Assembly (NCBI GenBank): GCA_028722305.1 | Contig: JAQYHB010000023.1 | Location: forward strand, 1-33,513 | Source of the DNA: Spirochaetales bacterium | GTDB lineage: Bacteria; Spirochaetota; Spirochaetia; Sphaerochaetales; Sphaerochaetaceae | Direction of reading: 5' to 3' | Length of the DNA stretch: 33,513 nt | Shown here: piece by piece, positions 1 through 19,243 of the stretch | How the letters are laid out: every line of letters begins with the position of its first letter | Position numbering within the stretch: position 1 is the first letter of the stretch | Notes under the pieces: generated by a model | What the model saw: only the letters and a program-made list of their open reading frames with translations | Told to the model about the DNA's origin: nothing | Database searches by the model: none | Translations under genes and position numbers: made by a program

Positions 1-895
1 AGTCTTCAAGCAACGCCCAAGCGCGGTTGATGACCCGCTTGGTATTCGCGACGACGATGTCCTCGTCCTCATCCTTCCATGGCTTCACCTCGAAGGAGAG
101 CACATACGGCCGCTCCTTGTCGAGGAAACCGTTCCGCTTCAGCTCGCGGAAGAAATCCAAAAGCTGGTCCGTGTCGTTCGCGCCGCCAGGGAATCCGAAA
201 CGCTGGTGCAGGTCCCCATACCCTTCGGCCCCCTTTTCCGCCACGGCGTTGCCGATGTGGAAATGGGTGATGTACGGCCTGCATGTGCCGATCACCTGGT
301 GGCTGTCCTCATGGGTGATCGGAAAGTGCGAAAGATCGACCAAAAGGCCGAAGTTGGAATGCCTCGTCCTCACGTCCGCCGCGAATCGGGCGGCGAGTGG
401 AGCCGGACCGATGAGGGCCGCCTTGTCCACGTCGTAGTCGAACACCTCGAGCTCGACATGCATCCCCTTCGTGGCAGCGTAGGCGCACAGGTTGCTGGTG
501 GTCTTGAGAAGCTGGCGATACGCGATATCCTTGGTCTCTTCCTCCCATTTGCCGGCAAGAAACGCGATCCCCTTCGCTCCGAAATACGCCGCCTCGTCGA
601 TGGCCTCAAGCAAGGTCTTCTCCGCCTTCTTCCGCTCCTCCTCGTCGACGGCGTTCGGGTTGAGCCTCGGGCCGAGCAATCTCGGTTGCGCTCCATAGCA
701 GACTCTCAGATGGCTCTGGTCGAGCAGCTTCTTCTCCTCCGCCCTGCTTCCGTCGTCTTTGTTCTGCGTGATCTCGATCGCGTCAAAGAACGGGTCGCGG
801 GCGATGGCCTTCACCGCGTCAAGGACCGGACGGTTCGGATAGCTCATCCAAAGGATTGTCCCCAGCTGGAAATAGGCATGGATGGATTCTTTCAT
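1..895 (-). CDS. Sugar-phosphate isomerase/epimerase-like TIM barrel protein (3' end outside window)
   Basis: The frame is open from an ATG at 895 to the left edge (298 codons), so the C-terminus lies outside the window. The protein starts MKESIHAYFQLGTILWMSYP. It has the layout of the xylose-isomerase-like TIM barrel family (AP-endonuclease 2 fold): an E-I-T strand near residue 42, LEVFDYD near 150, LLVDLSHFPITHEDSH near 185, ITHFHIGNA near 210 and LSFEVKPW near 265. The acidic and His residues in these strands are the usual divalent-metal ligands. Such enzymes interconvert keto and aldo sugars or epimerise them; the substrate cannot be read from sequence. A GGGA-type ribosome site lies just upstream. 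It follows the hydrolase and TRAP genes on the same strand after a 72-base gap, but it is much more GC-rich than they are, so it may belong to an older neighbouring unit. Confidence 0.8.
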   Translation of the reverse strand, partial: MKESIHAYFQLGTILWMSYPNRPVLDAVKAIARDPFFDAIEITQNKDDGSRAEEKKLLDQSHLRVCYGAQPRLLGPRLNPNAVDEEERKKAEKTLLEAIDEAAYFGAKGIAFLAGKWEEETKDIAYRQLLKTTSNLCAYAATKGMHVELEVFDYDVDKAALIGPAPLAARFAADVRTRHSNFGLLVDLSHFPITHEDSHQVIGTCRPYITHFHIGNAVAEKGAEGYGDLHQRFGFPGGANDTDQLLDFFRELKRNGFLDKERPYVLSFEVKPWKDEDEDIVVANTKRVINRAWALLED

Positions 896-915
896 GTAAA
901 CAATTTCCCTTATCT

Positions 916-952
916 GTTGCGGCTATTAGCAACATTTACTTTTGGCCGCAAC
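916..952. repeat. Inverted repeat in the hydrolase/TIM-barrel gap
   Basis: Perfect 8-base arms GTTGCGGC (916-923) and GCCGCAAC (945-952) are separated by 21 bases in the 72-base gap between the hydrolase stop and the TIM-barrel start. It could be an operator for the downstream gene or a weak RNA hairpin. No T-run follows on either strand, so it is not a classical terminator. Confidence 0.45.
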
Positions 953-967
953 AACACATCAAATGAT

Positions 968-1720
968 TCAAGACAGATGTTTGTGAAGATACCTCATCGT
1001 TACATCATAAACCTCTGTCTTCCATTTCACGCTACTGAACTGATGGTTGGATCCAGCGACGATATATAGCTCTGCCTTGTCACCGTACATGTCAAGGTAG
1101 GGTCCTATAGAAGCCACCGGAACCTTCTCATCGCATTCTCCATGTACCAGCAATACATTCCCCTTGTACCCTCGAGCTTCTGCAACAATGTCAATCTGGC
1201 GTATCTGCTTCAAAAACTCTCCTGCAACATACAATCCACCAACATCATAGACCTTTTCGTAGTGACCGGGAATGGCATGCGTCCGATTGCTGATATCATA
1301 GTAGGCTGTATTGCCAGGAGCCCATAGTATCAGCCCCGCGGGCTGCACGACGGGTGCGACATTAGACGCAATCGCACCTCCCAAGCTATGTCCGGAAAGA
1401 AAAATCTTATCACGTTTTGCGAAAGACTGCTTTTCGGTCCAATAGTAAATTGCCTTTGCCTCTTCCACTTCATCGGCATATCGCATTTCCTCAAAATCGC
1501 CATCACTTTCCCCGACACCATAGAAGTCAAAACGTACACATGCAAAGCCTTCTTTGACACATCGGCGAGCAAACAATTCATGAAGACGCATCATGCCGAT
1601 ATGGTCAACAGAAAACCCATGATAGAAAATGACGGTGGGAAACGGCCCTTCCCCTTCCGGGGTACGTACAACGCCTCGGAGTAACATTTCTCCGACTTTT
1701 AATTCCACACTTTTATACAT
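968..1720 (-). CDS. Alpha/beta hydrolase (cinnamoyl/feruloyl esterase-like)
   Basis: A 250-residue serine hydrolase. The oxyanion-region motif HGF is at residues 34-36. The nucleophile elbow is GHSLGG with Ser112, the acid is probably Asp198 in HGECDEKVP, and the catalytic His is His226 in GSNHQF. Size and motif order match the small bacterial esterases that cleave cinnamoyl or other aryl/acyl esters from plant sugars. There is no signal peptide, so it acts in the cytoplasm. The start is the ATG at 1720 rather than upstream TTG/GTG codons, because AGGAGG lies about 7 bases before it. It begins 15 bases after the dctM stop and is almost certainly co-transcribed with the TRAP genes. A plausible job is hydrolysis of an ester imported by the TRAP transporter. 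That link is inference; the fold and triad are read directly. Confidence 0.85.
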   Translation of the reverse strand: MYKSVELKVGEMLLRGVVRTPEGEGPFPTVIFYHGFSVDHIGMMRLHELFARRCVKEGFACVRFDFYGVGESDGDFEEMRYADEVEEAKAIYYWTEKQSFAKRDKIFLSGHSLGGAIASNVAPVVQPAGLILWAPGNTAYYDISNRTHAIPGHYEKVYDVGGLYVAGEFLKQIRQIDIVAEARGYKGNVLLVHGECDEKVPVASIGPYLDMYGDKAELYIVAGSNHQFSSVKWKTEVYDVTMRYLHKHLS

Positions 1721-1735
1721 GACCAACCTCCTTTG

Positions 1736-3037
1736 TCACGCCATGCCTTTATAACCCATCAACTTTGGCAGACAGAGAGTGATGTCTGGGAAGATAATGA
1801 GAATCAGCAAAACAACAATCAACGTGATAATCATGGGCAACACGTCCTTAAACACTTCCTCAAAGGTCGCGCCGGCGACACGTTGAGCGACAAACAGGTT
1901 GCCACCCATGGGTGGAGTAATCATGCCGATGCACAGGTTCACACACATGATGATGCCAAAGTGGAGAGGATCATATCCGATAGCGGTAGCAATTGGAGCG
2001 AAAATCGGGGCGAACAGTACGATGGAACTTATCGTATCAAGGAACATACCAATGACGAGGAGAGCGAGATTGATCATCATCATGATAAGGAACTTGCTGT
2101 TTGTCACCGACAACATCGCAGCGGTAACCTTGTTCGGAACATCATTCATGGTCAGGATGCGACCAAAAGTGTTGGCTGCCCCAAACAGGACCATGACCGT
2201 CGCGCTGGTAATCGCAGCATCAAACAGTGCCTGCTTGAAATCTTTCCAAGTCAACGAATGATACAGGAAGATGCTGACGACAAGAGCATATACGACACCA
2301 ACGACAGAAGACTCGGTCGGTGTAAAAATTCCCGAATAGATTCCACCCAAGATGATAATCGGCATCAATATAGCAGGAATTGCTCTAATAAGGACACGAA
2401 TCTTCTCTTGCCTAGACTTAAACTGGTTTTCTGCCCCATGGTAACCATACCGGGCAGAGGCATGTTTGTTCCACAAAATCAGGGACAAGCCCATCAAGAT
2501 ACCAGGAATAATGCCACCGATAAACAAGTATGAGACAGAGACCCCTACCGTTGTGCCATACATGATCATGGGAATAGATGGAGGAATGACAGGCCCGATT
2601 GTGCTTCCTGCTGCGATAATAGCCCCGCCATACCCACGGCTATATCCCTGGCTCTTCATGGCTCCAAGGAGAATACCCCCAATGGCGGCTGCTGTTGCAG
2701 GGCCTGAGCCGGAAATAGCTGCAAAAAACATGGATGCGACAATCGCTGCGCTGGCGAGTCCGCCAGGGCGCGAACCGGTAATCATGTTCGCAACATCGAC
2801 CAGTTTTTGCGCAATGCCGGTCTTTTCCATCAGAGTACCGACCAGCATAAAAAATGGAATGGCCAATAATGAAAAAGAGTCGATGCTTGTGACTGTCGAT
2901 TGGGCAAGCATGGCAATCATGTTGCTTCCCATGCCAGATGCGGTAAAAGCCGCAATACAAGCCGTTCCAAGGCAGACCGTGATTGGTACTGTCAACACGA
3001 GCAAAGCGAATAAGACAATAAGCATCACACCCGTCAT
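1736..3037 (-). CDS. dctM: TRAP transporter large permease (DctM)
   Basis: A 433-residue, very hydrophobic protein with about 12 membrane spans, the usual length for the DctM subunit of tripartite ATP-independent periplasmic transporters. Typical family stretches are visible: SGSGPATAAAIGGI near residue 110, GSTIGPVIPPSIPMI near 145, and FLDTISSIVLFAPIF followed by TPPMGGNLFVAQ in the C-terminal half. DctM is the ion-motive-force-driven channel that receives substrate from the binding protein. The ATG overlaps the dctQ stop codon in a 4-base ATGA, showing translational coupling. Confidence 0.95.
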   Translation of the reverse strand: MTGVMLIVLFALLVLTVPITVCLGTACIAAFTASGMGSNMIAMLAQSTVTSIDSFSLLAIPFFMLVGTLMEKTGIAQKLVDVANMITGSRPGGLASAAIVASMFFAAISGSGPATAAAIGGILLGAMKSQGYSRGYGGAIIAAGSTIGPVIPPSIPMIMYGTTVGVSVSYLFIGGIIPGILMGLSLILWNKHASARYGYHGAENQFKSRQEKIRVLIRAIPAILMPIIILGGIYSGIFTPTESSVVGVVYALVVSIFLYHSLTWKDFKQALFDAAITSATVMVLFGAANTFGRILTMNDVPNKVTAAMLSVTNSKFLIMMMINLALLVIGMFLDTISSIVLFAPIFAPIATAIGYDPLHFGIIMCVNLCIGMITPPMGGNLFVAQRVAGATFEEVFKDVLPMIITLIVVLLILIIFPDITLCLPKLMGYKGMA

Positions 3038-3537
3038 TTGGATACCCCCTGAGCAACATCAGCCGGTTGCTTCCACATGTAATATCTACGTTGAAGGATC
3101 CTAATCCCCATTCCAGCCATACCAAGGACTCCAGCTAGATACATCAACCATTTGGGAATCCAAGGAATAGCAGAAAGAACCTGCCCTTGCTTCATGACCA
3201 TAATCATGAACTTGGCAATCCGGTAGGAAAGGAAAAACCCGTAACAGGCGGCCACCAAATCTCCAATCAGGTAAATCGTACCGAACACTTTGGGGTGTGT
3301 TTTCGTTGCTAGGCTAATAGCAGTCACCCTCATATGGGCATCTGTCGATCCCGCCCAACTAATTCCCGCGAAGGAAATCCATACCAAGAAGAACCGGACT
3401 AATTGCTCAGCCCAGGAAAGCGTGAAATCGAAAACAAACCGGGTGATAATCGTTAGGAAGCTGATAGCAATCATTAGAATCAACAACACGATGCACACCC
3501 AACGCTCGATATTATTGTAAAATGCGTGTTTATTCAT
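3034..3537 (-). CDS. dctQ: TRAP transporter small permease (DctQ)
   Basis: 167 residues with four predicted membrane helices (roughly residues 13-35, 45-65, 87-108 and 125-148), the size and topology of DctQ. The WAEQLVRFFLVWISFAGISWA segment near residues 40-60 is characteristic of the family. DctQ partners DctM in the membrane and is needed for docking of the binding protein. The start is the ATG at 3537, with a GAGGG ribosome site nearby. An in-frame extension further upstream would run through the intergenic hairpin and is rejected. It lies 58 bases after the dctP stop. Confidence 0.93.
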   Translation of the reverse strand: MNKHAFYNNIERWVCIVLLILMIAISFLTIITRFVFDFTLSWAEQLVRFFLVWISFAGISWAGSTDAHMRVTAISLATKTHPKVFGTIYLIGDLVAACYGFFLSYRIAKFMIMVMKQGQVLSAIPWIPKWLMYLAGVLGMAGMGIRILQRRYYMWKQPADVAQGVSK

Positions 3538-3556
3538 GGAACTGCCCTCGAAATCA

Positions 3557-3584
3557 CGGGTTCTCGTCTTCCGACAAGAACCCG
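3557..3584 (-). promoter_or_regulatory. mRNA stem-loop between dctP and dctQ
   Basis: Twelve-base arms at 3557-3568 and 3573-3584 form, in the minus-strand transcript, a stem with one U-G wobble closed by a GGAA (GNRA) tetraloop. No U-run follows. It is therefore more likely a 3' stabiliser of the dctP message, or a partial attenuator that keeps binding protein in excess over permease, than a full terminator. Confidence 0.65.
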
Positions 3585-3595
3585 TCTCTTGTTTC

Positions 3596-4687
3596 TCAAT
3601 GCTTGGCATTAACTTCTTCTACAAGTTTCAGCTGGTCTTCGCCTATTTGCGGACCATATTTGTCATACACAGGCTGGGCAGCCTTCTTAAACGCATCTCG
3701 CTCTGCATCACTCAATGTGATGACCACGTTGCTCCCGTTGTGCCCGATCTTCTCCTCAAGTTCTGCCTCGTTAGAGTACGAAAGCTCTCGCTCTTTTGCC
3801 AAAGCTTCGGTAACTACTCCCTGAATCAAATCTTGGTCAGAAGCCGAGAGCGTATTCCACCACGAGCTCGAAGCAAGCAACGGGCTCGTATCATAGATAT
3901 GGCCGGTCTTGATGATGTACTTTTGAACTTCATACAGGCGGCTACCATTGATGTTCGCGAAGGGGTTCTCCTCAGCGTCCATTGTTCCATTCTGCAATGC
4001 CGTGTAAAGTTCAGAGAACGCCATAGGAATAGCAGAAGCGCCAAGCGCATTAAAGTGGTCGATATGCATCTGGTTTTCCATCACACGGATTTTCAGGCCT
4101 TTCATATCCTCAGGCTTGTGAATCTCCTTGTTTGCGGTCAAATGTCTCCACCCAGTGGAAAGCCATGCCAGGCCATGGAATCCAGAGCTCTCCAATTCGC
4201 TAAAAATGTGCTGGCCGACAGGTCCATCGAGAATCTCTTCGGCTGCTGCGTTATTCTTGAACAAGTACGGTAAATCCAGAAGTTTTGTTGAATTGGTAAA
4301 AGAGCCGAGGAATGCAACAGAAGAAATCGCCATCTCCAAAGTACCCGCCTGCAACTGCTCCATCAACTCAGTATTGTTTCCCAGTACAGAATTTGGGAAC
4401 ACTTTTGCTGTAATTCGACCGCCAGTCTTCTCCTCCAGAATCTTGCCAATCTCGTTCGAGGCAACATCAATGGGCACTCCGGCCTGACTGACATGGGCGA
4501 TTTTAATGGTAATTTTCGGCCCTTTGGTGTAATCAACTTCCGACGAGCTGGTGGCGGCCGCCGTTGCGTTTGCCTCCTGAGCGCTTGGCGTAGCCACTGA
4601 TTGGGTCGTGCTGTTCGATTGCTTGGAACATCCCACAAAACAACATGCAACCATTGCGATCAGACAAAACAATGAGTTCTTCTTCAT
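3596..4687 (-). CDS. dctP: TRAP transporter solute-binding lipoprotein (DctP family)
   Basis: 363 residues. The N-terminus has a Lys-rich start, a hydrophobic core and a lipobox VGC with Cys20, so the mature protein should be lipid-anchored outside the cytoplasmic membrane. A low-complexity Ala/Thr/Ser linker (about 25-50) precedes the DctP fold. Family landmarks are LDLPYLF (about 137-143), STGWRHLTAN (177-186), GLKIRVM with Arg201, and AEENPFANI near 238. Arg201 corresponds to the arginine that clamps the substrate carboxylate in this family, so an organic acid or sugar acid is the likely ligand. The ribosome site is GGAGG, 7 bases before the ATG. It is the first gene of the minus-strand operon and divergent from the regulators. 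Confidence 0.93.
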   Translation of the reverse strand: MKKNSLFCLIAMVACCFVGCSKQSNSTTQSVATPSAQEANATAAATSSSEVDYTKGPKITIKIAHVSQAGVPIDVASNEIGKILEEKTGGRITAKVFPNSVLGNNTELMEQLQAGTLEMAISSVAFLGSFTNSTKLLDLPYLFKNNAAAEEILDGPVGQHIFSELESSGFHGLAWLSTGWRHLTANKEIHKPEDMKGLKIRVMENQMHIDHFNALGASAIPMAFSELYTALQNGTMDAEENPFANINGSRLYEVQKYIIKTGHIYDTSPLLASSSWWNTLSASDQDLIQGVVTEALAKERELSYSNEAELEEKIGHNGSNVVITLSDAERDAFKKAAQPVYDKYGPQIGEDQLKLVEEVNAKH

Positions 4688-4999
4688 TTTTAACCTCCAA
4701 TCTTTGTATTTTTAGTTTACCATCTGAAAAAGTTCCTAAAACCCCTGTAATTACTCAAGATTTTCACGGAATAATTGGTTTTATAGCACATAACTATGCG
4801 AAATAATTTCAAAATTAGTTGCTTTTGTTTTTTTCAATCAGTTGATTTTTTGCAAAATTGGTCATATTTCCTACAAAATACAGGCTTTTTTGTATGTACT
4901 GCACACTAATCACCAAAATCTTTCTTTTTCTTGGGATATTTTCTTGTGTTTTTCTCTTCCTCGTTTTAGGATAAAAGCACTAAACCAAAGGATTAATTT
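4688..4999. promoter_or_regulatory. Divergent promoter region between dctP and the fusion regulator
   Basis: 312 bases without a gene, strongly AT-rich. It must contain the promoter of the dctP operon on the minus strand and that of the regulator pair on the plus strand. A candidate plus-strand promoter is TTGCAA at about 4850 with TACAAA 16 bases further on. A 12-base palindrome AATCAGTTGATT lies at 4836-4847 and is a possible operator, though a palindrome of this strength could arise by chance in a region this size. No other convincing structure is seen. Confidence 0.4.
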
Positions 5000-7051
5000 G
5001 TGTATCTCAGACCTGAACAAGTCCAATCCATCCTCTCTTCCATCCAGATGGCACTGACAAATCCGGTCGCCATTCTCAGTATGGATTGGTTGGTCCTCGG
5101 AACCACGACGCCTACACTTAAGGAAAAACTGGACAGTATGATTCTTGTCTGCAAGCAGGATCAACAGCTTGCCTCTTCCTTCGGTGCAGATCTCTTTTGC
5201 TGCCGCGTCCTCGGAGAAGACGTATGCCGAGTAGTCGTTTTTGGTACTCATGCTGAACTTTTTCGAACGTTTATCTCTCAAATTATCGTCCTTACTGTCG
5301 GTAATAATGGGATAGTACAAGCCGAAAATGCCCAACTCAACATGCGAACAATGTTGACCAATCAGCTTGCAAACAGTTCCAAACCAACTACAGAAATTCT
5401 CGGATTCCTCTCGGATCTTTCTTATCGGCCAGACATTTCTCGATGTGCGATACTATTCCACCTCGATCCAAAACCGCTTAGTGCCAAGTTGGAAATTTCG
5501 TGGTTTGAACAGAATTTCTCCAGAATAATCAACGATTCTGGATTCCAGAACACCCAAGATATTTACGGCCCCCTCAACAGCGAGCACTACTTGGTCTTTA
5601 AAGCAACGAGAACCACGAAAGAAGCGGAAATTCACAAGGAAATTTCCGATTTCGTCCACGCATTCCGCATAGCTTGCCAGAGTCAATTCGGTTTCTCCGT
5701 TCAGGCAACTGCTGGGACGTTCTATCCGCGTGTGGATGGCATGAAAAACAGTTACGAGGAGGCGGCCTTCCTTCAAAACCAGTATCGATACCTCCATAAC
5801 CATGACCAAGAAGTATTGTTCCTGGATTGCTATATTTACGAATACCTCAACTCATTGCTCCCCAAACATTTTCTTGACAATGCCTTTCAACATATCAACG
5901 CTGTTGTCGATCGGTATCCGTTGCTCTTGGAAACAATAACTGCTCTTTCCAAAAATGACACAAACCTCACCTTTTGCGCCAACGACCTGCACCTCCACCG
6001 GAATACCCTTCTCATGCGGTATGCTCATCTCAAAGAACGGCTTGGGATGGACCCCGTCCATAAGGATACCGATAGGCTCAATCTTCGTTCTTATGCGCTC
6101 TATCGAAGCCAGAAATTAAACCTGCATGTGGGTATCATGATTCAACCCCATAGTGTGCTTCACCAAGGAATGGAACGGTTTGCCCAAATCGTGGAAAAGG
6201 AAAGCCAAGGAAATATCGTATTAGACATTCACACTCTTTCTACGTCAGGAGACAACTCTATGGTATTCAACATGCTTTGCCAAGGAGCTCTTGATTTCGT
6301 AATTTGTTCTACGAGTGTGATGAACGAAGCCACCGCAGGACGATCAGCCGTCATGGAACTTCCATTCCTCTTTGATTCGTATGAGCAAGCCCAAGATGTA
6401 CTCGAACGGGTTGTTCTTCCGGACATCGAAGAATCTTTAACTGGTGTTGGGGCAAAATGTCTTGCTATCTGGTCGATGGGTTGGCGATACATCACTACCA
6501 ATGGGAAACCGATCCATGTCCCATCCGACCTTGCAGGTCTTCGTTTCCGCATCATGTTCAACAACACAATGGAAACCTATTGTAAGATGATTGGCGCCAT
6601 TCCCATCAAGATGAATTATAACGCTATTGCCAAAGCGTTCGAAACCGGGCTGATTGATGGGCAGGAAAACCCAGCAAACAACATTTTGGAGATGGGTTTT
6701 GCAAATTACCAGCAATATATCACTGTACTCAACTACAATTTTAGTACCGAGGGTTGCTTTATCTCTCGAACTATTTGGGAAAAACTTTCAGAAGTCCAAC
6801 GTAAACTCATTGTGCATGCGATGCGAAAAACTACTGAATGGATCTATCAAATGCAGGATTCCTATAACAAGCAATGTCTAGACACACTCATCAAAGGAAA
6901 GGGACTCATTCCCGTCTATCTGACAAAAGAAGAGATTGAGAAATGGAAGGATAGCGTGCGTCCACTGTACTCAGCGTTTGAACACCAAGACTTGATCCGA
7001 AAAATCAGAAAGGCAGCAAAGCTTTATGCAGTCAAACCAAAATCCAATTGA
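5000..7051 (+). CDS. PucR/CdaR-type transcription regulator fused to a cytoplasmic DctP-like ligand-binding domain
   Basis: 683 residues from a GTG start. AAAGG lies 8 bases upstream and an in-frame TAA at 4994-4996 excludes an earlier start. Residues 1-120 look like a divergent small-molecule sensor domain. About 150-310 resembles the degenerate cyclase-like middle domain of PucR/CdaR proteins. About 315-368 is the PucR C-terminal helix-turn-helix (LHLHRNTLLMRYAHLKERLG). About 372-683 is a complete TRAP binding-protein domain: MELPFLFDSYEQA, WSMGWRYITTNG, GLRFRIM with Arg517 and DGQENPANNI. These align in order with the neighbouring DctP (LDLPYLF, STGWRHLTAN, GLKIRVM, AEENPFANI). There is no signal peptide or membrane helix, so this domain stays in the cytoplasm. 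The likely role is a one-component regulator of the divergent dctPQM operon that binds the imported substrate. Domain calls are direct; ligand and target are inferred. Confidence 0.85.
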   Translation: MYLRPEQVQSILSSIQMALTNPVAILSMDWLVLGTTTPTLKEKLDSMILVCKQDQQLASSFGADLFCCRVLGEDVCRVVVFGTHAELFRTFISQIIVLTVGNNGIVQAENAQLNMRTMLTNQLANSSKPTTEILGFLSDLSYRPDISRCAILFHLDPKPLSAKLEISWFEQNFSRIINDSGFQNTQDIYGPLNSEHYLVFKATRTTKEAEIHKEISDFVHAFRIACQSQFGFSVQATAGTFYPRVDGMKNSYEEAAFLQNQYRYLHNHDQEVLFLDCYIYEYLNSLLPKHFLDNAFQHINAVVDRYPLLLETITALSKNDTNLTFCANDLHLHRNTLLMRYAHLKERLGMDPVHKDTDRLNLRSYALYRSQKLNLHVGIMIQPHSVLHQGMERFAQIVEKESQGNIVLDIHTLSTSGDNSMVFNMLCQGALDFVICSTSVMNEATAGRSAVMELPFLFDSYEQAQDVLERVVLPDIEESLTGVGAKCLAIWSMGWRYITTNGKPIHVPSDLAGLRFRIMFNNTMETYCKMIGAIPIKMNYNAIAKAFETGLIDGQENPANNILEMGFANYQQYITVLNYNFSTEGCFISRTIWEKLSEVQRKLIVHAMRKTTEWIYQMQDSYNKQCLDTLIKGKGLIPVYLTKEEIEKWKDSVRPLYSAFEHQDLIRKIRKAAKLYAVKPKSN

Positions 7052-8168
7052 ATTCTATCAGCTGTTGTGTGCCACATTTCCAAATGCTTCCCTATTTGTG
7101 GTTTCAAGAGAAGGGCATTGTGTCAGCGATTTTAAAGGAGATTTCCATTTGTTTGAATCGGCTACAACTTTTTCTGGTATAAAAGAAGTCACAGGAGTTC
7201 ATATTCATGAGGAATTGTGGCTGAAAATTGGTCTTCCGTATAATGGGCAGTACCAGTTGTTCGTCTTTTTTCCCGAAGGCGTATTCCCGGACAGTTTCAC
7301 CCCGGCACGGATGATCGACACACTCTATCAACTGTACTCTCGGAAGGCTCAAACCTCTGACATTCCCATTCCGAACGAGCGAAGCATTCAGAATCTTTTC
7401 ATTTACCAGTTATTCAACTGCCGTACGCAAAGTGATGCTACGTATACATCATTGCTCGCAACCAAACTCGGTTTAGACCTCACTTCCTCCCGGCTCGTCT
7501 GCCTTTTAGCGTGGGAAAATGGAGAAAGCACTATTACACCACAACAACTCAATTTGCTCCTCGGCAGATATAGTGACGCACAAGATATCCATGGAGAATA
7601 CGGAGCCAAGTGGCTTGTCTATTGTCCTCATTTTGAACTCTCCACTTATCGGCGGGAAGATTGGAAAGAACGTCTTGTCTCCCTCAAGAAACACTTAGAA
7701 AAACGATACAACATCTCCATCTTTATCGGGGTTGGATTAATCGTTCACTCCTTAGGAGAATATGGTACTGCAATATATTCTGCGCGCATTGCAATGGAAC
7801 ATGCAAATTCGGAGAATCCTGTGTGTTTCGCTTTGGACTACCCCGTCGAACATATGCTTCAGTCAATTTCAGAGCACACCTTGCACCATTTTCTCGGAGC
7901 GAAGACGCAATTTTTAAGGGAAAACCCGTTGCTTCTTTCGACTGCGGAGGCGCTCGTCAATTCTAACATGGATATCCTTCAAGCCGCAGAAGCCCTTTCC
8001 GTTCATCGGAACACAGTGGTATTCCGCATCGGGCAAATACGAAAAATACTTGGAATAAACCCACTCCATCGAGACAACGATCGTTTCCTTCTTATTCTTA
8101 TCTGTGTATATGCGCGCATGAACCAGGCCCACCAAACCGAGCAAGTTGTTATTCCGGAAGGACAATAA
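7026..8168 (+). CDS. PucR/CdaR-like transcription regulator
   Basis: 380 residues, overlapping the end of the fusion regulator by 26 bases in another frame, so the two are co-expressed. The C-terminal 55 residues (about 311-365) hold the PucR-type helix-turn-helix: ILQAAEALSVHRNTVVFRIG followed by the GINPLHRDNDRF segment, which matches GMDPVHKDTDRL in the first regulator. The middle (about 150-270) has the degenerate cyclase-like layout, and the first 110 residues are a poorly recognisable sensor domain. There is no DctP-like extension, so it is a shorter relative of the upstream protein. It may form mixed complexes with it or read a second signal. Its 3' end overlaps the convergent racemase gene by 20 bases. 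DNA target unknown. Confidence 0.8.
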   Translation: MQSNQNPIEFYQLLCATFPNASLFVVSREGHCVSDFKGDFHLFESATTFSGIKEVTGVHIHEELWLKIGLPYNGQYQLFVFFPEGVFPDSFTPARMIDTLYQLYSRKAQTSDIPIPNERSIQNLFIYQLFNCRTQSDATYTSLLATKLGLDLTSSRLVCLLAWENGESTITPQQLNLLLGRYSDAQDIHGEYGAKWLVYCPHFELSTYRREDWKERLVSLKKHLEKRYNISIFIGVGLIVHSLGEYGTAIYSARIAMEHANSENPVCFALDYPVEHMLQSISEHTLHHFLGAKTQFLRENPLLLSTAEALVNSNMDILQAAEALSVHRNTVVFRIGQIRKILGINPLHRDNDRFLLILICVYARMNQAHQTEQVVIPEGQ

Positions 8169-9426
8169 CGGAAACCCCATCAGGAATCACCGTAACGGAG
8201 GCTTTGGGGTTGCCGAGAATGCGTTGTGCCTCCGCCATGGCAGTTTCAAGCGAATGACAGGGAACCATATGAAGGGCCTTTACCATCGCATCGGGAGCAT
8301 CGGACACATAGATGACTGACGCTTTTTGGAGAATACGAATAAAAATCTGTGCCTGCCACTGGTCTGGTAGCGTTTCGTTTCTTCCTCTGGATAAAAAAAG
8401 CTTCAATGTCTTATCGATATCACGTTCATCGCCCAACTGGTGAAAGAAATGCTCCCCTCCGTGTCCATCCTGTGACTGTGCCACCATGATGATGACGCCA
8501 CCGCGACGTACCGTAGCCTCTGCGGCTGTCATGCCCTTTACCGCCTGATAGATATTTTGATCCAATGGATACCCACCATTGCTGGAAATCACGATATCAG
8601 CTGGTTTTGCCGATACTTTGCAAAGTGAAGAAAGAAATGCGCATCCACGCAAATGGGCTTCCTCCATATCTCCGGCAACGGCATAGATGATTTCTTTCTT
8701 GGCATCCAACACCACATTGCAGATAAATGCAAGTTTGGCTTTGCGCGCAGCCCAAACCATATCTTTGTGAATAGGGTTTCCATCAAGTACTCCCGTACGC
8801 GCATGCTCATCAGCGATAAATTCGCTGCAATGGTTGGCCAGAACGCTTTTCCGGCTCGCTATACCGGGAAGCACGCTTTTCCGTCCTCCCGAGAAACCGG
8901 CAAAGAAATGCGGTTCGATAAAACCTTCACTGCAGACCAAGTCGGCATCCACAACAATCCGGTTGACCAGCAAGTCTCCACCACTGGGAAGTACACCGAC
9001 ATGGGCCATTGATGAGGAATCACAGTCGTGAACAATTATGTGCTCATGCCGAGCGATGAAAGTGCCGAATTTTTCCTCAATCTCTTGTTTTGTCGTGCCA
9101 CGATGGCAGCCGGTGGCAATCAGGATGGTGATTCTTGCATCTGGATTTCCCTTGCGGATTTCGGCGAGCATTCTTGGAACAATGATTTTGCTTGGAACCG
9201 GACGGGTATGGTCACTCGCAATCAAGACGACATTGCGTTTTCCCTTGGAAAGTTCGGAAAGTCGTGGACTGCCGATGGGATTAGCCAACGCATTGTCAAC
9301 CAGCTGTTCCTGGCTTTTGTCAGGCACATAGTCGTGCAGTTTGGGAACCAAAACACCATGCAAACGGCTATCTTCAAGTTGCAATGACAATGTGGTTTTC
9401 CCATATGGAATCAAGAGCCTTTTCAT
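8149..9426 (-). CDS. larA: LarA-family nickel-pincer racemase (lactate racemase-like)
   Basis: 425 residues from the ATG at 9426 (AAGGGG site 7 bases upstream), the normal LarA length. Residues known to matter in Lactobacillus plantarum LarA fall at the same or adjacent numbers: Asp72 and Arg75 in SDHTRPVP, His108 in ATGCHRG, His173 and Lys183 in EPHFFAGFSGGRKSVLPGI, and His199 in LANHC. LarA uses a nickel-pincer nucleotide cofactor, covalently bound to the lysine, to racemise or epimerise 2-hydroxy acids by hydride transfer. The cofactor-making genes larB, larC and larE are not in the window. With a TRAP transporter and acid-type regulators alongside, a 2-hydroxy or aldonic acid other than lactate is quite possible. 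The 3' end converges on the second regulator. Confidence 0.88.
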   Translation of the reverse strand: MKRLLIPYGKTTLSLQLEDSRLHGVLVPKLHDYVPDKSQEQLVDNALANPIGSPRLSELSKGKRNVVLIASDHTRPVPSKIIVPRMLAEIRKGNPDARITILIATGCHRGTTKQEIEEKFGTFIARHEHIIVHDCDSSSMAHVGVLPSGGDLLVNRIVVDADLVCSEGFIEPHFFAGFSGGRKSVLPGIASRKSVLANHCSEFIADEHARTGVLDGNPIHKDMVWAARKAKLAFICNVVLDAKKEIIYAVAGDMEEAHLRGCAFLSSLCKVSAKPADIVISSNGGYPLDQNIYQAVKGMTAAEATVRRGGVIIMVAQSQDGHGGEHFFHQLGDERDIDKTLKLFLSRGRNETLPDQWQAQIFIRILQKASVIYVSDAPDAMVKALHMVPCHSLETAMAEAQRILGNPKASVTVIPDGVSVIVLPE

Positions 9427-9441
9427 GTGAACCCCTTTTTC

Positions 9442-9455
9442 GATTATCAATAATC
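9442..9455. promoter_or_regulatory. Palindrome upstream of the LarA gene
   Basis: GATTAT-CA-ATAATC is a perfect 6+2+6 palindrome ending 16 bases before the racemase start codon. Its place between promoter and ribosome site suits an operator. The protein that binds it is unknown; one of the two adjacent PucR-like regulators is a candidate. Confidence 0.4.
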
Positions 9456-9480
9456 TGCCATGGGAAAACAATGTACTCAT

Positions 9481-11603: not shown

Positions 11604-12371
11604 TCACGCATAGCCAAGCACCTTCCGGAATGCAGTATTCAGCTCCTGCCAGTCTTTCTTCCGGTCATCGGCTGCGGATTCGGCAAGCAGGTTTTGCCGT
11701 TCACACTCCTGGGTGACAAAATCAAGAATCTGGGGAATCTGAGGATGCTGCTCCTTTTCCTCGCTCCTTGCCTTCAGTTTCAACAATTCTTCCACTGCGT
11801 CACGAAACGAGGTTCTCTCGAGCAACGGCAGCATCTGCCGGAACTCTACGGGAGGAACCGAATGGTATGTCTCGATCCACCTGCAACACAAAAGGGGGCG
11901 CAACGCATACAGGTACTTCTTGTAGCTGACCTCGCTTCCCTTCAGGTAGCCCATCAGCGTCGCCTTGGCGATCCCATAGTAATGGCAGAGCGCCGCCTTC
12001 TCGGAAAAATAGCCCATCGCAACCGGCTTCAGTTCCTGCCAGGCTGGTGTTTCCTTGTAGATGATTGGCGAGTTCGTCCATTCCATCACATTGGGATTTC
12101 CTTTTCCAAAAGCCAAGAGTGTCTTTTGCAAGTCCCATCCGTTGATATCCAGCACCGCATCCAGCTTCCACTCGATGACATCGCGCATCGCGTCAATGCG
12201 CAGATACTCCTCGGGATGGTGCACGTACACGAAACGCACGTCATAATCGCTATCCGGCGACGGGAAACCCCACGCGCGGCTTCCAGCCTCTGCCGCCCAC
12301 AGGATACGCACATCGTACTGCTTTTCAATCGCATCCAGATTCTCCTGGATTTCCCTGGCTATATCCCTCAT
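11604..12371 (-). CDS. Nucleotidyltransferase, RlaP/PF10127-like (second of pair)
   Basis: 255 residues. The polymerase-beta-type signature GS-x9-D-x-D is at the N-terminus: AEAGSRAWGFPSPDSDYDVRF, residues about 27-47. It is followed by VIEWKLDAVLDINGWDL and NPNVMEWTNSPIIY, as in the PF10127 nucleotidyltransferases; one member, RlaP, is tied to RNA repair. It would transfer a nucleotide to RNA, a protein or a small molecule; which one is unknown. Its ATG overlaps the stop codon of the upstream homologue by 4 bases, so the two are made together. Confidence 0.8.
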   Translation of the reverse strand: MRDIAREIQENLDAIEKQYDVRILWAAEAGSRAWGFPSPDSDYDVRFVYVHHPEEYLRIDAMRDVIEWKLDAVLDINGWDLQKTLLAFGKGNPNVMEWTNSPIIYKETPAWQELKPVAMGYFSEKAALCHYYGIAKATLMGYLKGSEVSYKKYLYALRPLLCCRWIETYHSVPPVEFRQMLPLLERTSFRDAVEELLKLKARSEEKEQHPQIPQILDFVTQECERQNLLAESAADDRKKDWQELNTAFRKVLGYA

Positions 12372-13387
12372 CTTCCCCCCTCGCTGACTGCCTGGCGGTT
12401 GATATGCTCGACGAACGTCTCCACCGCATGCATGTCGGGATTATCCGGCAACAAGCTATGCTTCGATGCCTCGGCAAACCGGTTTTCATAATCAGCGACT
12501 ATCTCGTAAAACTCCGGCGTAGGAACTCCGTCCTGCATATATGCGCCATCCCGGATCTCCCTCAGGAGCCGCAAATCCGATTCCGGCCTGTGCGTCCGGA
12601 TTTCCGCATGCTCCAGGATGTCGATTCCCATCATGAGCAGGCGGACGAGATGCATGGCGTGTTTTTGCAGGTGGTTGGTATCTTTTGTATGGTTCCGGCT
12701 CCCACCTGTATCATAATTCCTCACCACCGCATGCAGGCTGTCCATCAACTCGAACCATTTCCGAAGCGGATACTGCGCAATATGCCCTTCCAGGAAAAGT
12801 TCCTTTTCCAGCCCTTCGGTCACCGCGTCGGCGACATACAGCCGCACCCCCGGTCCCTGTTCTTGGAAGCGCCGGTTGTAATCTTCCAGCACATGGCCAG
12901 CAGACCGCAAGATATGCGCTTCCCGTTCGGGCTGAGGCAACTTGTCCCGGGCAACCGCATTCTGCAACTTGCGAAGCTGGGTGTCCGCATAGTGGCAGAA
13001 AGACGATGCGGCGCGTTTGCTCAAAAACAGCATCGTATGGTCCAACAGCTCTTGGCCGACCACGGATTTCACCACGTACTGGTCGCTGTCCAAACCCAGA
13101 ATCTCGATGACATTCGGGTTACAGTTCAACAGGAGCCTGACCAGTTTCCGGAACGAATAGATGACGGTATCTGTCGTCCGGTCCTCAAACTGCTCGAACT
13201 CGGTCAGCCCAAGGATATCCGACACCGGGTTGAGCGCTATTCCGCGCAGGTCCACATCGCTACCTTCCCGGTTCGTCCCATAGCCATAACTGCCACAGAC
13301 ACCCAGCAGCATGACCCGGTCTTTCAACCGGGAATCGGTGCGGAGGAAATCGTAGGCTTTCGTTTGTATCAAATTGTTGAAATCCAT
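12368..13387 (-). CDS. Nucleotidyltransferase, PF10127-like (first of pair)
   Basis: 339 residues with the same catalytic layout, GVCGSYGYGTNREGSDVDLRG (residues about 29-49), then NCNPNVIEILGL near 88-99. The middle and C-terminal regions are longer than in its partner and helical, with a conserved-looking TKDTNHLQKHAMHLVRLLMMG stretch near 235. The pairing of two different PF10127 proteins in one coupled operon suggests a heteromeric enzyme or successive reactions on one substrate. The gene is divergent from the interrupted exonuclease, 104 bases away, so the two units may share a control region. Confidence 0.8.
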   Translation of the reverse strand: MDFNNLIQTKAYDFLRTDSRLKDRVMLLGVCGSYGYGTNREGSDVDLRGIALNPVSDILGLTEFEQFEDRTTDTVIYSFRKLVRLLLNCNPNVIEILGLDSDQYVVKSVVGQELLDHTMLFLSKRAASSFCHYADTQLRKLQNAVARDKLPQPEREAHILRSAGHVLEDYNRRFQEQGPGVRLYVADAVTEGLEKELFLEGHIAQYPLRKWFELMDSLHAVVRNYDTGGSRNHTKDTNHLQKHAMHLVRLLMMGIDILEHAEIRTHRPESDLRLLREIRDGAYMQDGVPTPEFYEIVADYENRFAEASKHSLLPDNPDMHAVETFVEHINRQAVSEGGR

Positions 13388-13491: not shown

Positions 13492-15096
13492 ATGGCAATA
13501 CGACAAAAAACAACCTTGGGCAGGAAAACCATCGTGGATGTGGAACTGGTCGACCTTGCCATGGACCAGGTCCGTGCCAGCCGCCTGAAAGCCGAAGTCC
13601 TGGAAATCGGCGCCGTCATGCTCGATGGCAGGTATGCCTTGGTCGACAGGTTCCATGCCCTAGTAACACCGGGCCATGCCAAAGGTCTGTACGAGAAGCG
13701 ATACAAGGCGCTCGAAAGGGATTCGGATGAGCGGACCACGCTCAAGACTACCTTCGGAAAGGCAATGGTGGCATTCTGCGGCTGGCTCGGGGAAGCGCCA
13801 ATCGACCTGTATATGTGGAGCGAATCGGACTACCACATTTTGTGCGAGCAAATCCGCTGGCAGACACCCAAGGATTAGAGGAACGAGCTGCTTCCCTACT
13901 TGGAACGCAGCATCGATCTGCAGAAACTCTTCATGAAGGCGCTGGAAGCCAACAACTGTCCCTCCCTGGATTATGCGATGGAGCTGGTCCACGAGCCATT
14001 CCAGGGAAAGCGCCATCACGCGCTGGACGATGCGGAAAATACTGCCCGGGTCTTCGCAAAACTTGCCAGAAGCAACCGGTTGCCGGAAAACCCTGTCAGC
14101 ATTCCCATGGCAGAACGGACAAAGCAGGATACTCTGCCAGTAGCCTCCATCGCGTCCCTCCTGGGGCTTCCCGTCCCTCCAAGGGAAGCGGAAAAGAAGC
14201 CGCGCACGCCCTACGGCATCAAGCCCAGCGCGAGGATCGCCTTTTCCGTCTCTTCCTTCTTTACTCCGGGGCTCTCCCATGAGCACCGCATCCTGGAAAC
14301 CATCGACAAGGTCTTCCATGGGAAAGTCCAAAACCCGGTCATCGAGGAACCGGAACCTTGCCCTACCTTTCTCTCGTACACGACCAGATTCTTTTCCCGA
14401 AAGGACGGCGCGTTCCGAGTCTCCCATCCGGAAGTTGACGACGGGACGGGAAACGCCTTCGACGAGTTGTTTGTGGAAGAGGTGCTTGAGGCCCGCTTTT
14501 CCCAGAAACAGCTTTGCGAAATCACCCATGCGGAAGTGCGCGCGTTCTGCAAATACGTGCGCAAGCGCCACCCCGTCGGCTGCCAGTATGTCCTGTACCT
14601 GCTCAAGGAGGTCTGCGACCAGGCTTGGAAGGACGGCCTGCTTTCCTTCAACGGGGATGTGGCGGAATCCTTCGCCGATACCAGGACCCCCGGGACCGAG
14701 AAAGCTCTAAGGCGGTTGTTCTCGTTCGCTTGGGAAGAGGAAACGCATGCCGTCATCGTCCAGACGATGGTAGTGACCGGGCTTTCCCTAGGCGATGTGA
14801 CATCGCTCCTTGCCGAAGATGCCGGGCGCCTGGCGGGACAGATGATCCAGGAGGGGCTTCCCTATGGCTGGGAAACCTGCCCGCTCTCCGACTATCTCGC
14901 GAAACAGACGCTCGAGCCCTACGCCAAGGTATTCGGGGAAATCCCTCTGACCAAGCGGGAAGTGCGAAAGACCCTCGCGAACGCGGAAAAACGCGCGGGC
15001 ATGGACGCGTGGGTGCCACTTGAAACGCTACGCATGCTCGGCGTCCCAAAGCCCGGGGACGCGCGCGCGGCGCGCCCCCCTTTCCAGCGGACTTAG
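13492..15096 (+). pseudogene. DEDDh (DnaQ-like) exonuclease gene interrupted by one in-frame TAG
   Basis: A single reading frame of 535 codons is broken only by a TAG at 13876-13878 (codon 129). The exonuclease active site spans the stop: Asp16 and Glu18 (IVDVELVDL) and the motif-II Asp in SESDYHIL lie before it, and the motif-III HHALDDAENTARVF (His175 and Asp180 in the continuous numbering) lies after it. Neither piece alone can be active. The sequence around the break (TPKD*RNELLPYLERSIDLQKLF) continues smoothly, and CAG to TAG is a single transition. The C-terminal 330 residues have no family I recognise and contain a WEEETHAVIVQTMVVTGLSL helix-rich section. Alternatives are readthrough, a suppressor tRNA or a sequencing error. 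The 3' end overlaps the convergent MBL-rubredoxin gene by 4 bases. Confidence 0.82.
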
Positions 15097-16052
15097 GCTT
15101 TGCCGAACTTTGTCTTCGGCTGCCTGCAATGCGGACAATGCCAATCCTCGGGAAGCTTCTCGAACGGCGTTCCGGGAGCGATGCCCTGGCTGGGGTCTCC
15201 CACAGCGGGATCGTAGACATATCCGCAGACACTGCAGACATATTTGCCCGTAGCGGTCTTGCGCATCTTCGGTTCCTTCGGAGCGATGACCGCGGGGGGA
15301 TTGTCCAGGTCGACGACTTTCTTCGCCTCAAGATTCTCCCATCCGAGCGGGGTATGGGTCGACACGTAGACGGTCGGATGGGTGGCGATGAAGGCGCGCA
15401 CCATATCGAGTGTCTTGCGCGCCGCGGCCTTGTCCTCGTAGACGACAGACAACTTGTTGGCGTACAAGGCTTCGTCGCAATAGGTCACGTCCCCGTGAAT
15501 CAGATAGAAAAGCCCTCCGTCCTCGACGATGACGATGGAATTGCCTGTGGTATGGCCGGGAGCGGGAATGAAGCGCACGCCCTCGCAGATTGTCTGGGAA
15601 GCGGGGAAATTGGCATAAGGGCCATCGGTGAACCCGACAGGCACGACATTGGGCAATTGCAGTTCCTTGGCCTGGGCTTCAGCCGCGGAAGCGTAGATCT
15701 TCGCATTGGGGAAGTGCTTCAACGCCCCGGTATGGTCGGCGTGCTTGTGGGTGACCAGGATCTTGGTCACCTGTTCACTCGCATATCCGGCCTTTTCCAG
15801 CGCGGGCAGGTAGTCGCTGATCTTTTCTCCCATGTAGAGCATGGTCTTCTCCTCGACGACCTGGCCCGGATATCCGTCCGGCATGCCGGTATCGACCAGA
15901 ATGACTTCCTTGCCCGTATCGATCAGGTAATTCTGCAGGCTGGAACGATAGCGGATGGCGGGATTGAACGCGGCCGGCCCTTCCTCTCCGCCAAAGGCGA
16001 AAGGCTGAACCATGAAACCGTCTTGGAACAACTTGATAGCTTTGATTGTCAT
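15093..16052 (-). CDS. Metallo-beta-lactamase-fold hydrolase with C-terminal rubredoxin
   Basis: 319 residues from the ATG at 16052, with AAGGAG 7 bases upstream. Residues 1 to about 250 are a metallo-beta-lactamase fold with the metal motif HKHADH (102-107), PAPGHTTG near 178 and IHGDVT near 197, most like the lactonase-type subgroup. The last 50 residues are a complete rubredoxin: [18 protein letters not shown] and [14 protein letters not shown], with all four iron-binding Cys present. Fusions of rubredoxin to metal hydrolases or flavoproteins usually serve electron transfer in anaerobes (oxygen or NO detoxification). Here, however, the flavodoxin part typical of Rbo/FprA proteins is absent, so the role of the electron carrier is unclear. 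No signal peptide. Confidence 0.9.
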
Positions 16053-16185
16053 TTTCCGACTCCTTCTCCGACATATTTTTCCATAGATGGGCGTTTGGCA
16101 CCAGTCCAAGCCCGCTTTTTGGTGACAGATTCGCAAAAAGTTTTCCCAATGTGGTTCGAAAGCATTAGTATTGGTGTTCTGTGGG

Positions 16186-16200
16186 CGCGGGTTTCCCGCG
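16186..16200 (+). promoter_or_regulatory. GC-rich hairpin just upstream of the sppA ribosome site
   Basis: CGCGGG-TTT-CCCGCG is a perfect 6-base stem with a 3-base loop, ending a few bases before the AGGAAGG ribosome site of the next gene. It may limit or protect translation initiation. Confidence 0.35.
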
Positions 16201-16214
16201 TCGAGGAAGGTGAA

Positions 16215-17030
16215 ATGAAACATAAGAAATTCGCAAGAATCTTCATTGAGGGAATTATCGAGAAAGACAACGACACCTACAACCAGGAGTGGTTGCTGGA
16301 CACGATCGACGAGATAGCGGACAAGAAGCGCATCATGGGGATCCTCGTGCATATCGATTCTCCGGGAGGCGGTGTCTATCAGACCGATGAGGTGTATAAG
16401 GCGTTGCTCGCTTACAAGAAGAAGACGAAGAAGCCGGTATACGCGTACTTCGGTTCCCTCGCGGCTAGCGGAGGGTACTACATCGGGCTTGCGGCGGACA
16501 AGATCTTCGCCAACAGGAACACCCTTACCGGTTCCATCGGTGTGATTTCCGCCCGGTTCCTTGACGCTTCCGCCTTGCTGGGGAAGGTCGGCATCAAGTC
16601 CGAATACATCCATACGGGCAGGAACAAGACTATGGGCGACATCGCGACGCCCCCCACCCAGGAGCAGATTGCCATCATGCAGCGTATCTCCGATGAAAGT
16701 TACGAGCAGTTCACGGGGCTTGTCGCGGAAAGAAGGAAGCTGGGCATCGAGAAGGTACGGGAACTTGCCGATGGAAGGATCTATTCGGCGAAGCAGGCGC
16801 TTGAAGCGGGGCTGATTGACGAGATCGCCGATTTCAAAGAAGCCTGCGATTCCATCGAGAAGGAGCTCGGTTATTCCCTAACGGCAATCGACTACAAGAG
16901 GAAAAAGAAGGGTCTCCTCAAGAAGTTCCTAGGTCCAAAAAACCAGAGCGGCGTCGACGCGGTGCTGGCAAAGCTGAAATCCCCGACACCCTTTCCCGCT
17001 TTCTTCTTTGATCCGGGGAGATTCAGGTAA
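16215..17030 (+). CDS. sppA: Signal peptide peptidase SppA-like serine protease (S49 family)
   Basis: 271 residues from the ATG at 16215, preceded by AGGAAGG. The S49 landmarks are [14 protein letters not shown] (47-60), the nucleophile Ser85 in [25 protein letters not shown] (105-111) and Lys138 in HTGRNKTMG. The Ser-Lys spacing of 53 is what SppA enzymes with a Ser-Lys dyad show. SppA degrades leftover signal peptides at the membrane. Oddly, no N-terminal membrane anchor is present, even if the ATG at 16149 is used (22 extra residues, no clear helix). It could therefore be soluble or peripheral, or act on other peptides. The next gene starts 36 bases downstream on the same strand. Confidence 0.88.
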
Positions 17031-18035: not shown

Positions 18036-18140
18036 GAACAGCACCTCTGACTCCGAAGAGTTGCGACGACTTACACTCTCTCCACAGGCGTAGATTTCCG
18101 TGCGACCCACGGTATTTTACGAGTTACGTTAGGCAGATAT
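17969..18140 (-). ncRNA. Predicted TnpB guide RNA (reRNA/omega RNA) with guide in the host gene
   Basis: The minus strand downstream of tnpB is non-coding, structured and similar in layout to known right-end guide RNAs: a GTGGAGAGAGTG stretch, a stem AACTCTTCGGAGT, then GAAACAGGAAGC and the terminal stem at 17998-18019. The guide is expected to be the 15-20 bases beyond the element end (17988 downward, TGAATTTGGTCC). That sequence next to TTTAA is exactly the reconstructed empty site. The 5' extent inside tnpB is uncertain. Confidence 0.65.
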
Positions 18141-19238
18141 TCGCCTAGCTTCCTCGCGAATGTTTATTGCAGCATTCTTGTCCCGATTATGGTGATTGCC
18201 ACAATTGGGACAATCCCATTCTCGTACAGACAAGTCCTTGGTCTCGTCATTTTGGTAGCCGCAAACATGACAAAGCTGGCTACTTGGATACCACTTGTCT
18301 ATCTTGACAAGCTTTTTGCCTTGCCAAGCAAGTTTATACTCCAGTATGTTCGTGAACATATTCCAGCCATTGTCGGCTACGGATCCACCAAAACTGAACT
18401 TGCCACCTTTCTTATGTTTTGCCATGGCCTTGACGCTAATATCCTCAATGCCAATGGCATCATAGCGGTCTACAAGATAGCGAGCCTTCTTATGCAGAAA
18501 ATCACGGCGTTGATTAGCAATCTTCTCATGAAGCACAGCCACACGCAATCTTTGCTTTTCTCTGTTGTGGCTCCCCTTCTGCCTTTTGGATAGTTTTCTC
18601 TGTGCCTTGGCCAGTCTTTTTTCTGCTTTTCGCAGGAAATTGGGATAATCGGCATCATCCTCATCCGAAGCAACATACAGACCGTGCATAGCAAAATCCA
18701 GCCCAAGAAATTTCTTCGGTATTATGGGGAGTATTTGATTTTCGTACTCCACCAAAATACTTATGTAGTATTTGTCCGATGGTGTTTTGCTTATGGTCAC
18801 TGTCTTTATAGTGCTATTCTCCATCAATGGACGGTGCAGACATAGCTTTACCCAGCCTATTTTGGGAAGCTTTACCTTGCTCCCCTCGATTCCAACCGAA
18901 CCATTTTGGTTGTTGGTCGAATAAGAGGTATGGCTGGTTTTCTTTGACTTGAAGCGTGGCTTGCCAAAGTGCTTCCGATTGTTCCAAAAGTTGTTGTATG
19001 CCTTGTTCAGGTTCAGTTGGGCATTGGCGAGAGCCAAACTGTCCACTTCCTTCAGCCAAGGAAATTCGTCCTTGTACTGTGCGGGGGTATTGTTCAGCTT
19101 CTTGCCCGTTTCCTTGTAATAGTCAAGGCGGTCGGCAAGCATCTTGTTATAGATGAATCTGGCACAGCCGAAGGTCTTGGCAAACATAATCTTCTGTTCA
19201 GTTGTCGGATAGAGCCTGTATCGGTATGCCTTATTCAC
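18129..19238 (-). CDS. tnpB: TnpB, RNA-guided endonuclease of IS200/IS605
   Basis: 369 residues from a GTG at 19238 (AGGTGA just upstream); further upstream in-frame codons overlap tnpA and are rejected. The RuvC-like nuclease residues are all present: Asp181 in FLGLDFAMHG, Glu265 in IGIEDISV and Asp353 in HNRDKNAAINI. The zinc-finger Cys pairs are LCHVCGY (323-326) and DCPNCGN (343-346). The N-terminus KAYRYRLYPTTEQ is the standard TnpB beginning. TnpB cuts DNA at sites matching its guide beside the target motif, helping to keep the element at its donor site. The GTG start lies 6 bases after the first base of the tnpA stop codon, so the two are coupled. Confidence 0.95.
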   Translation of the reverse strand: MNKAYRYRLYPTTEQKIMFAKTFGCARFIYNKMLADRLDYYKETGKKLNNTPAQYKDEFPWLKEVDSLALANAQLNLNKAYNNFWNNRKHFGKPRFKSKKTSHTSYSTNNQNGSVGIEGSKVKLPKIGWVKLCLHRPLMENSTIKTVTISKTPSDKYYISILVEYENQILPIIPKKFLGLDFAMHGLYVASDEDDADYPNFLRKAEKRLAKAQRKLSKRQKGSHNREKQRLRVAVLHEKIANQRRDFLHKKARYLVDRYDAIGIEDISVKAMAKHKKGGKFSFGGSVADNGWNMFTNILEYKLAWQGKKLVKIDKWYPSSQLCHVCGYQNDETKDLSVREWDCPNCGNHHNRDKNAAINIREEARRISA

Positions 19239-19243
19239 TATAG

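Follow-up and report, generated by a model that had tools for sequence, protein, structure and literature searches.

A PucR/CdaR-type regulator with a C-terminal TRAP-type DctP domain, its partner regulator and an operator-like site beside dctPQM

A single gene of a Spirochaetales bacterium (Sphaerochaetaceae) encodes a PucR/CdaR-type regulator that continues, past its helix-turn-helix (HTH), into a complete DctP domain of the kind found in TRAP solute-binding proteins. The gene lies in the window, by which I mean the whole stretch of DNA analysed here (33,513 nt; GCA_028722305.1, contig JAQYHB010000023.1, positions 1-33,513, forward strand), next to a divergent dctPQM operon and together with a second, DctP-less regulator. 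My reading of this arrangement, to which I give about two chances in three, is that the fusion protein is a cytoplasmic one-component regulator with a TRAP-type DctP sensor that, together with its partner, binds the site TGTRY-N5-GCACA and switches the dctPQM-hydrolase operon in response to an imported hydroxy-acid or a close product of it. The genes concerned are as follows.

968..1720, minus strand: closing gene of the dctPQM operon, an alpha/beta hydrolase of the cinnamoyl/ferulic acid esterase type
1736..3037, minus strand: dctM, large TRAP membrane subunit (69-78% identical to relatives)
3034..3537, minus strand: dctQ, small TRAP membrane subunit, probable start MNKHAF (58-65% identity to the genes in DctQ position in L045, L046 and L052)
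3596..4687, minus strand: dctP, exported lipoprotein-type TRAP solute-binding protein (Pfam 3e-86, signal-like N-terminus)
5000..7051, plus strand: PucR/CdaR-type regulator with a C-terminal, predicted cytoplasmic DctP domain, 683 aa, GTG start (Pfam, AlphaFold2, fold matches, orthologues)
6485..6670, plus strand: carboxylate-pocket codons of that regulator, Arg496 (6485-6487), Arg517 (6548-6550), Tyr540 (6617-6619) and Asn557 (6668-6670)
7026..8168, plus strand: second regulator, PucR/CdaR-like, GGDEF_2 plus HTH_30, without a DctP domain (Pfam, clade, gene order)
8149..9480, minus strand: nickel-dependent 2-hydroxyacid racemase of the larA type, transcribed towards the regulator pair (NCBIfam NF033504)

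The regulator is one unbroken frame in which a small alpha/beta domain (residues 1-103) is followed by a GGDEF-like domain (about 111-280), an HTH_30 domain (about 309-368) and the DctP domain (371-678). Pfam places HTH_30 (PF13556) at 309-355 (E 1e-7, 32 bits against a curated cut-off of 27), and the same domain exceeds the cut-off in six relatives and in L119 as well. The DctP match at 382-661 is far stronger (E 4e-64, 217 bits, cut-off 23), whereas GGDEF_2 (PF17853) at 134-255 stays below threshold (20.7 against 24.5 bits) and exceeds it in the relative L054. The regulator does not reach the CdaR equivalog NF008550 (14.8 bits against a cut-off of 612), and a Pfam scan with E up to 0.1 found DctP in place of SBP_bac_5. 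Hydropathy revealed no signal peptide-like stretch at the N-terminus, and the DctP part sits behind 370 residues of PucR-type protein. The original prediction of a PucR-type HTH and a full-length DctP domain in one frame, with no export signal, is thus borne out by Pfam, AlphaFold2 and hydropathy alike. Its domain boundaries need a small correction: the HTH begins somewhat earlier (309 by Pfam) than the proposed 315 or so, while the DctP fold does start at about 371-373.

The AlphaFold2 model of the full-length regulator has a mean pLDDT of 90.9. Compared by fold, residues 371-678 of the model match the sugar-acid binding protein 7bbr with a Z of 37.4 and an rmsd of 2.3 over 304 residues, which removes the possibility, raised at the outset, that the DctP-like part has an unrelated fold; solved DctP proteins match the domain throughout (Z about 36-37). 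A fold search with residues 111-371 returned two solved PucR-type regulators, 9f80 (Z 14.2 over 235 residues) and 3onq (Z 12.3 over 231 residues), both with a high rmsd, and the domains are therefore set at different angles. Residues 1-103 gave only roadblock-type matches (Z about 9), leaving the fold of this domain uncertain; it could be a second sensor. In the model the HTH region ends in a helix (356-370) that leads almost without a linker into the first DctP strand (373-379), so closure of the DctP domain could move the HTH directly.

The fusion was found in 12 further genomes, from Sphaerochaetaceae and Clostridia, making 13 with the window; one of them has lost its 5' end. The same full-length layout is present in L050 (with L045, part of genome G085), G091, L052-L057, L060 and L119 (genome G814), and only the HTH-DctP part is seen in L058, where a contig end cuts the gene, and in L051 (with L047, part of genome G097), where the 5' part of the gene is lost. 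In the home family, to which G097 also belongs, G085 and G091 are 43% identical to the regulator over its full length; those from Clostridia (L052-L057, L060 and L119, besides L058) are 28-38% identical. The fusion is rare, occurring in 2 of 394 sampled genomes of the home class, the home genome aside, and in 1 of 390 genomes sampled from the class to which G632 belongs. An alignment-based scan of genome contigs found relatives where a single-protein scan had matched nothing, and a search of viral contigs found none. Four other candidates were inspected: the long open frames around DctP matches in G001 and G058 are not fusions, and G396 and G139 have ordinary CdaR-type genes near a glycerate kinase instead.

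This spread also disposes of the suspicion that a chimeric assembly or a frameshift joined a PucR gene to a dctP gene. Beyond the unusual layout nothing speaks for such an artefact, and independent genomes of two phyla carry the identical join; the orthologues refute it, and I regard its probability as very small.

Is the DctP domain still able to bind a ligand? TRAP binding proteins grip the ligand by its carboxylate with Arg152, Arg173 and Asn213 (4P47 numbering), and residue 196 closes the site (PMC11668362). Arg496, Arg517, Tyr540 and Asn557 of the regulator correspond to Arg152, Arg173, Tyr196 and Asn213 of PDB 4P47, and all four are invariant in 12 of the 12 aligned regulators, whose overall identity is about 30%. 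Arg517 aligns, as predicted, with Arg201 of the neighbouring DctP, and so do Arg496 with Arg181 and Asn557 with Asn241. Mean entropy is 0.53 bits over the 12 pocket columns and 1.42 bits over the whole domain (309 columns); only 5 of 100,000 random column sets reached so low a value. Among other DctPs, 31 of 46 have the carboxylate triad. As judged from the sequence, the carboxylate pocket of the regulator is intact, and its invariance and low entropy argue for continued ligand binding.

The same data bear on the idea that the domain is a ligand-free scaffold or a protein-docking module, with sensing left to the N-terminal domain or to the partner. The regulator does retain its N-terminal alpha/beta domain, and PucR-family regulators function without any DctP domain (PMC7652997). 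However, few residues of the domain are as well conserved across the two phyla as those that hold the carboxylate, and a scaffold would need none of them; I consider this explanation improbable.

Although the regulator does carry a predicted cytoplasmic DctP domain, as originally proposed, the suggestion that this domain is a recruited copy of the DctP next door does not hold. In a DctP tree, from which three rows of the home genome that look misread were omitted, the DctP domains of the regulators form one clade (100/100) outside every transporter DctP, and the identity between the window's regulator domain and the DctP next to it is no more than about 27%. The separate clade and low identity therefore point to one old fusion rather than to a recent copy of the neighbour. 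The two proteins also differ at pocket positions outside the carboxylate residues, where the regulator has Glu584 and Met493 and the neighbouring DctP has Ser and Thr, respectively, which counts against my main reading.

These differences leave room for a sensor that responds to another molecule, such as a downstream or feedback metabolite (glycerate or another aldonate, for example), with dctPQM still under the control of the regulator. The regulator domain is as far from the neighbouring DctP as from unrelated DctPs, pocket positions 149, 240 and 241 differ systematically, a cytoplasmic sensor meets the pool after metabolism, and glycerate kinase and dehydratase genes adjoin some copies. Set against this, most regulators share Asn76, Ser94 and Asn217 with the DctP encoded beside them, and a change of transporter goes along with a change of pocket: in L055 and L060, which have a different neighbouring transporter, positions 37, 76, 94 and 240 of the regulator pocket differ too. 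On balance I think it unlikely that the sensed molecule is a different one, and I prefer the reading in which the regulator responds to the imported acid or a close product.

The second regulator gene overlaps the fusion gene by 26 nt, and an overlap between the two is usual. In the window, G085, G091, G097, L052-L055, L060 and L119 the partner gene comes after the fusion gene, and in L056 and L057 it is located upstream of dctP instead. The partner sequences (n=11) form a single clade (100/99), and the partner and regulator trees share the groups (L054,L055), (L053,(L056,L057)) and (window,(L050,G091)). Judged by these trees, the partner and the fusion regulator evolved as a pair, a conserved two-gene arrangement that the original observation did not mention.

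The genes on the other side of the regulator belong to a TRAP system with a hydrolase. The neighbouring DctP has a signal-like N-terminus by hydropathy, with a lipobox, FVGC, recognised by eye. The hydrolase has ferulic acid and cinnamoyl esterases among its nearest relatives of solved structure and is found at the equivalent place in L045, L046, L052, L056, L057 and L119. Beyond the regulator pair, the larA-type gene scores 619 bits against a cut-off of 460 (NF033504), and a LarA-type racemase also occurs in the module of L056, L057 and L119. In L056 the gene after the regulator encodes a glycerate kinase, as it does, judging by sequence similarity, in L057 and L058, and an IlvD-type dehydratase neighbours it in L055 and L060.

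The fusion is not always beside dctPQM. In G097 the fusion gene (L047 9244-10452, minus strand) is missing the first 260-odd codons and no longer has dctPQM beside it, and it retains an open HTH-DctP frame and the partner gene. This case, an HTH-DctP part kept without dctPQM, counts against my main reading. In L055 and L060 (about 1-6700) the neighbouring dctPQM comes from another lineage and lies three genes off, the intervening genes being of IlvD type, of 3-hydroxyacyl-CoA-dehydrogenase type and a third metabolic gene.

Elsewhere in the window several other genes deserve a record. A carbohydrate-type solute-binding lipoprotein gene (20706-22142) overlaps by 4 nt the gene directly after it, which encodes a 1000-residue GGDEF-EAL protein (22139-25141, plus strand); the two are a possible sensory unit leading from a binding protein to cyclic-di-GMP. 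A protein with a PocR sensory domain and an AraC-type HTH (25179-26045, minus strand) lies beside a sugar ABC transporter and sulfatase cluster. The minus strand also encodes a TnpB-type protein (OrfB_IS605 with a Cas12f1-like TNB domain, 18129-19343), a metallo-beta-lactamase-fold protein with a C-terminal rubredoxin domain (15093-16613) and two adjacent RlaP-like nucleotidyltransferase-type genes (11604-13387), the first assigned by Pfam (RlaP) and the second by eye.

When the DNA between the divergent regulator and dctP genes was aligned for the window, G085, G091 and L052, a block, TTGTAT-N5-GCACA, stood out from otherwise poorly conserved sequence. In the window it gives two candidate sites.

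4890..4905, plus strand: proposed operator, TTGTATGTACTGCACA, which matches TTGTAT-N5-GCACA exactly; the 2.7-Mb genome has no other exact copy
4775..4790, plus strand: possible second, degenerate operator, TTGGTTTTATAGCACA, with 2 mismatches, 115 bp from the first

The degenerate site occupies the place of the exact second copy of relatives (L050, G091 and L052), which lies at 116 bp in G085, 107 bp in G091 and 105 bp in L052. The regulator-gene promoters of L053, L055 and L060 contain the perfect inverted repeat TGTGC-N5-GCACA; before dctP there is a copy with one mismatch in L053 and there are exact copies of TGTRY-N5-GCACA in L057 and L119, and the promoter of L056 has only a site with one mismatch. 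TGTRY-N5-GCACA was not found before the regulator gene of L119, nor before dctP in L055 and L060; these gaps, like the imperfect site of L056, count against my main reading. Overall it occurs at 12 sites in 4,320 bp of DNA upstream of regulator and dctP genes, as opposed to one in 182,383 bp elsewhere. Without the four loci used for motif discovery a hand count gives 5 sites in about 3.0 kb of such upstream DNA and 1 in about 103 kb of other DNA, L055 and L060 being near-duplicates. The lone match outside promoter DNA (L119 9485, minus strand) is inside the fusion gene and is either a chance occurrence or an internal site. Across a set of 101 family genomes the exact 11-base form occurs by chance about 0.9 times per genome; pairs of exact copies no more than 120 bp apart occur only in G085 and G091, and these are the other two genomes of the set that have an intact fusion beside dctPQM.

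I therefore propose TGTRY-N5-GCACA as an operator-like site that marks the promoters of regulator and dctP genes. It might belong to another regulator, with the fusion protein acting elsewhere, given that the perfect form resembles other dimer sites in its general shape. Yet in the home genome the exact site stands only beside the fusion gene, and it tracks the gene pair across Spirochaetota and Bacillota, which makes ownership by another regulator quite unlikely. On sequence grounds, the sites indicate that the regulator, with its partner, probably controls the neighbouring transporter genes, in line with the original choice of the divergent dctPQM operon as the predicted target, since operator-like sites stand in its promoter and in those of relatives.

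The proposed mechanism would run as follows. The regulator-partner pair would bind the inverted repeats between the regulator gene and dctPQM; the imported small hydroxy-acid, or a close product, would close both lobes of the DctP domain; closure would reposition the HTH, which is joined directly to the first DctP strand; and transcription of the dctPQM-hydrolase operon would then be switched, most likely on. As to direction, the characterised PucR-family regulators covered by PMC7652997 are activators, B. subtilis PucR both activating and repressing, and GabR binds two inverted repeats in its own divergent promoter and activates (PMC7652997). By analogy with these, activation of dctPQM is the likelier outcome. 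As to the ligand, related solved binding proteins carried pantoate or erythronate, often co-purified (PMC11668362). Together with these bound ligands the esterase-type hydrolase, LarA, the glycerate kinase and the dehydratase suggest that the regulator would sense a small 2-hydroxy acid or its ester.

At 105-107 and 115-116 bp the two copies of the site are roughly 10 and 11 helical turns apart, which would set both on one face of the DNA. I put forward tentatively, and with rather more doubt than belief, that a hetero-oligomer of regulator and partner bridges the two operator copies, the single TRAP domain of each pair being a ligand-driven hinge; a binding protein of a transporter family would then serve as the allosteric domain of a transcription factor. 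DNA looping is only an idea at this point, because four related loci are few.

How does this regulator compare with known systems? A GGDEF-like domain precedes the HTH in about half of the PucR/CdaR family. With members such as E. coli CdaR, B. subtilis PucR, PutR and AdeR and C. glutamicum GabR the fusion regulator shares the GGDEF-like and HTH_30 domains, a position divergent from or next to catabolic genes, and inverted-repeat sites, of which the GabR promoter also has two (PMC7652997). Family members, however, carry the HTH at their C-terminal end or close to it, whereas here it ends at about residue 368 of 683 and 310 further residues add a complete DctP domain; unlike these members, the fusion regulator also has a second family member as an encoded partner. 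SgrR and DsvR are likewise cytoplasmic transcription factors in which a solute-binding-protein domain follows the DNA-binding part (PMC13060122). They differ in their type of HTH and in their sensor, which is an ABC-type SBP_bac_5 domain rather than a TRAP DctP, and they have neither a partner regulator nor a tie to a cognate transporter of their own binding-protein family. Btr (YbbB) of B. subtilis, a one-component regulator with an AraC HTH and a Peripla_BP_2-type domain, detects the imported solute with a sensor similar to the binding protein of the uptake system next to it. Its AraC HTH and siderophore-type binding domain contrast with the PucR and DctP parts found here. TRAP binding proteins themselves are exported receptors of a secondary transporter. 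Those compared here (4P47, 7BBR DctPAm and IseP) have the fold and the carboxylate-binding residues in common with the regulator domain, which is unexported, fused to a DNA-binding protein and in a clade of its own.

In the open-licence literature I found no paper on a PucR-DctP or any other HTH-DctP fusion, nor on a PucR-family HTH that is followed, not preceded, by its sensor, on the dedicated partner or on the shared site. The original statement that no regulator of this layout had been described holds to that extent; sensors derived from other binding proteins are known, as SgrR and Btr illustrate. Thus, the principle of a binding-protein sensor on a regulator is known, and a TRAP DctP domain in that role is, as far as that literature shows, new.

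What matters here is that a TRAP fold with an intact carboxylate clamp has been placed on a cytoplasmic transcription factor. If the domain does bind a ligand, the substrate of an unannotated TRAP system could be read from its regulator, the protein would offer a ready biosensor scaffold for hydroxy-acids, and it would show how DNA binding can be driven by the closing of a TRAP domain. Finally, the binding site of even E. coli CdaR had not been determined (PMC7652997), and the regulator pair and its site make this poorly studied PucR/CdaR family testable.
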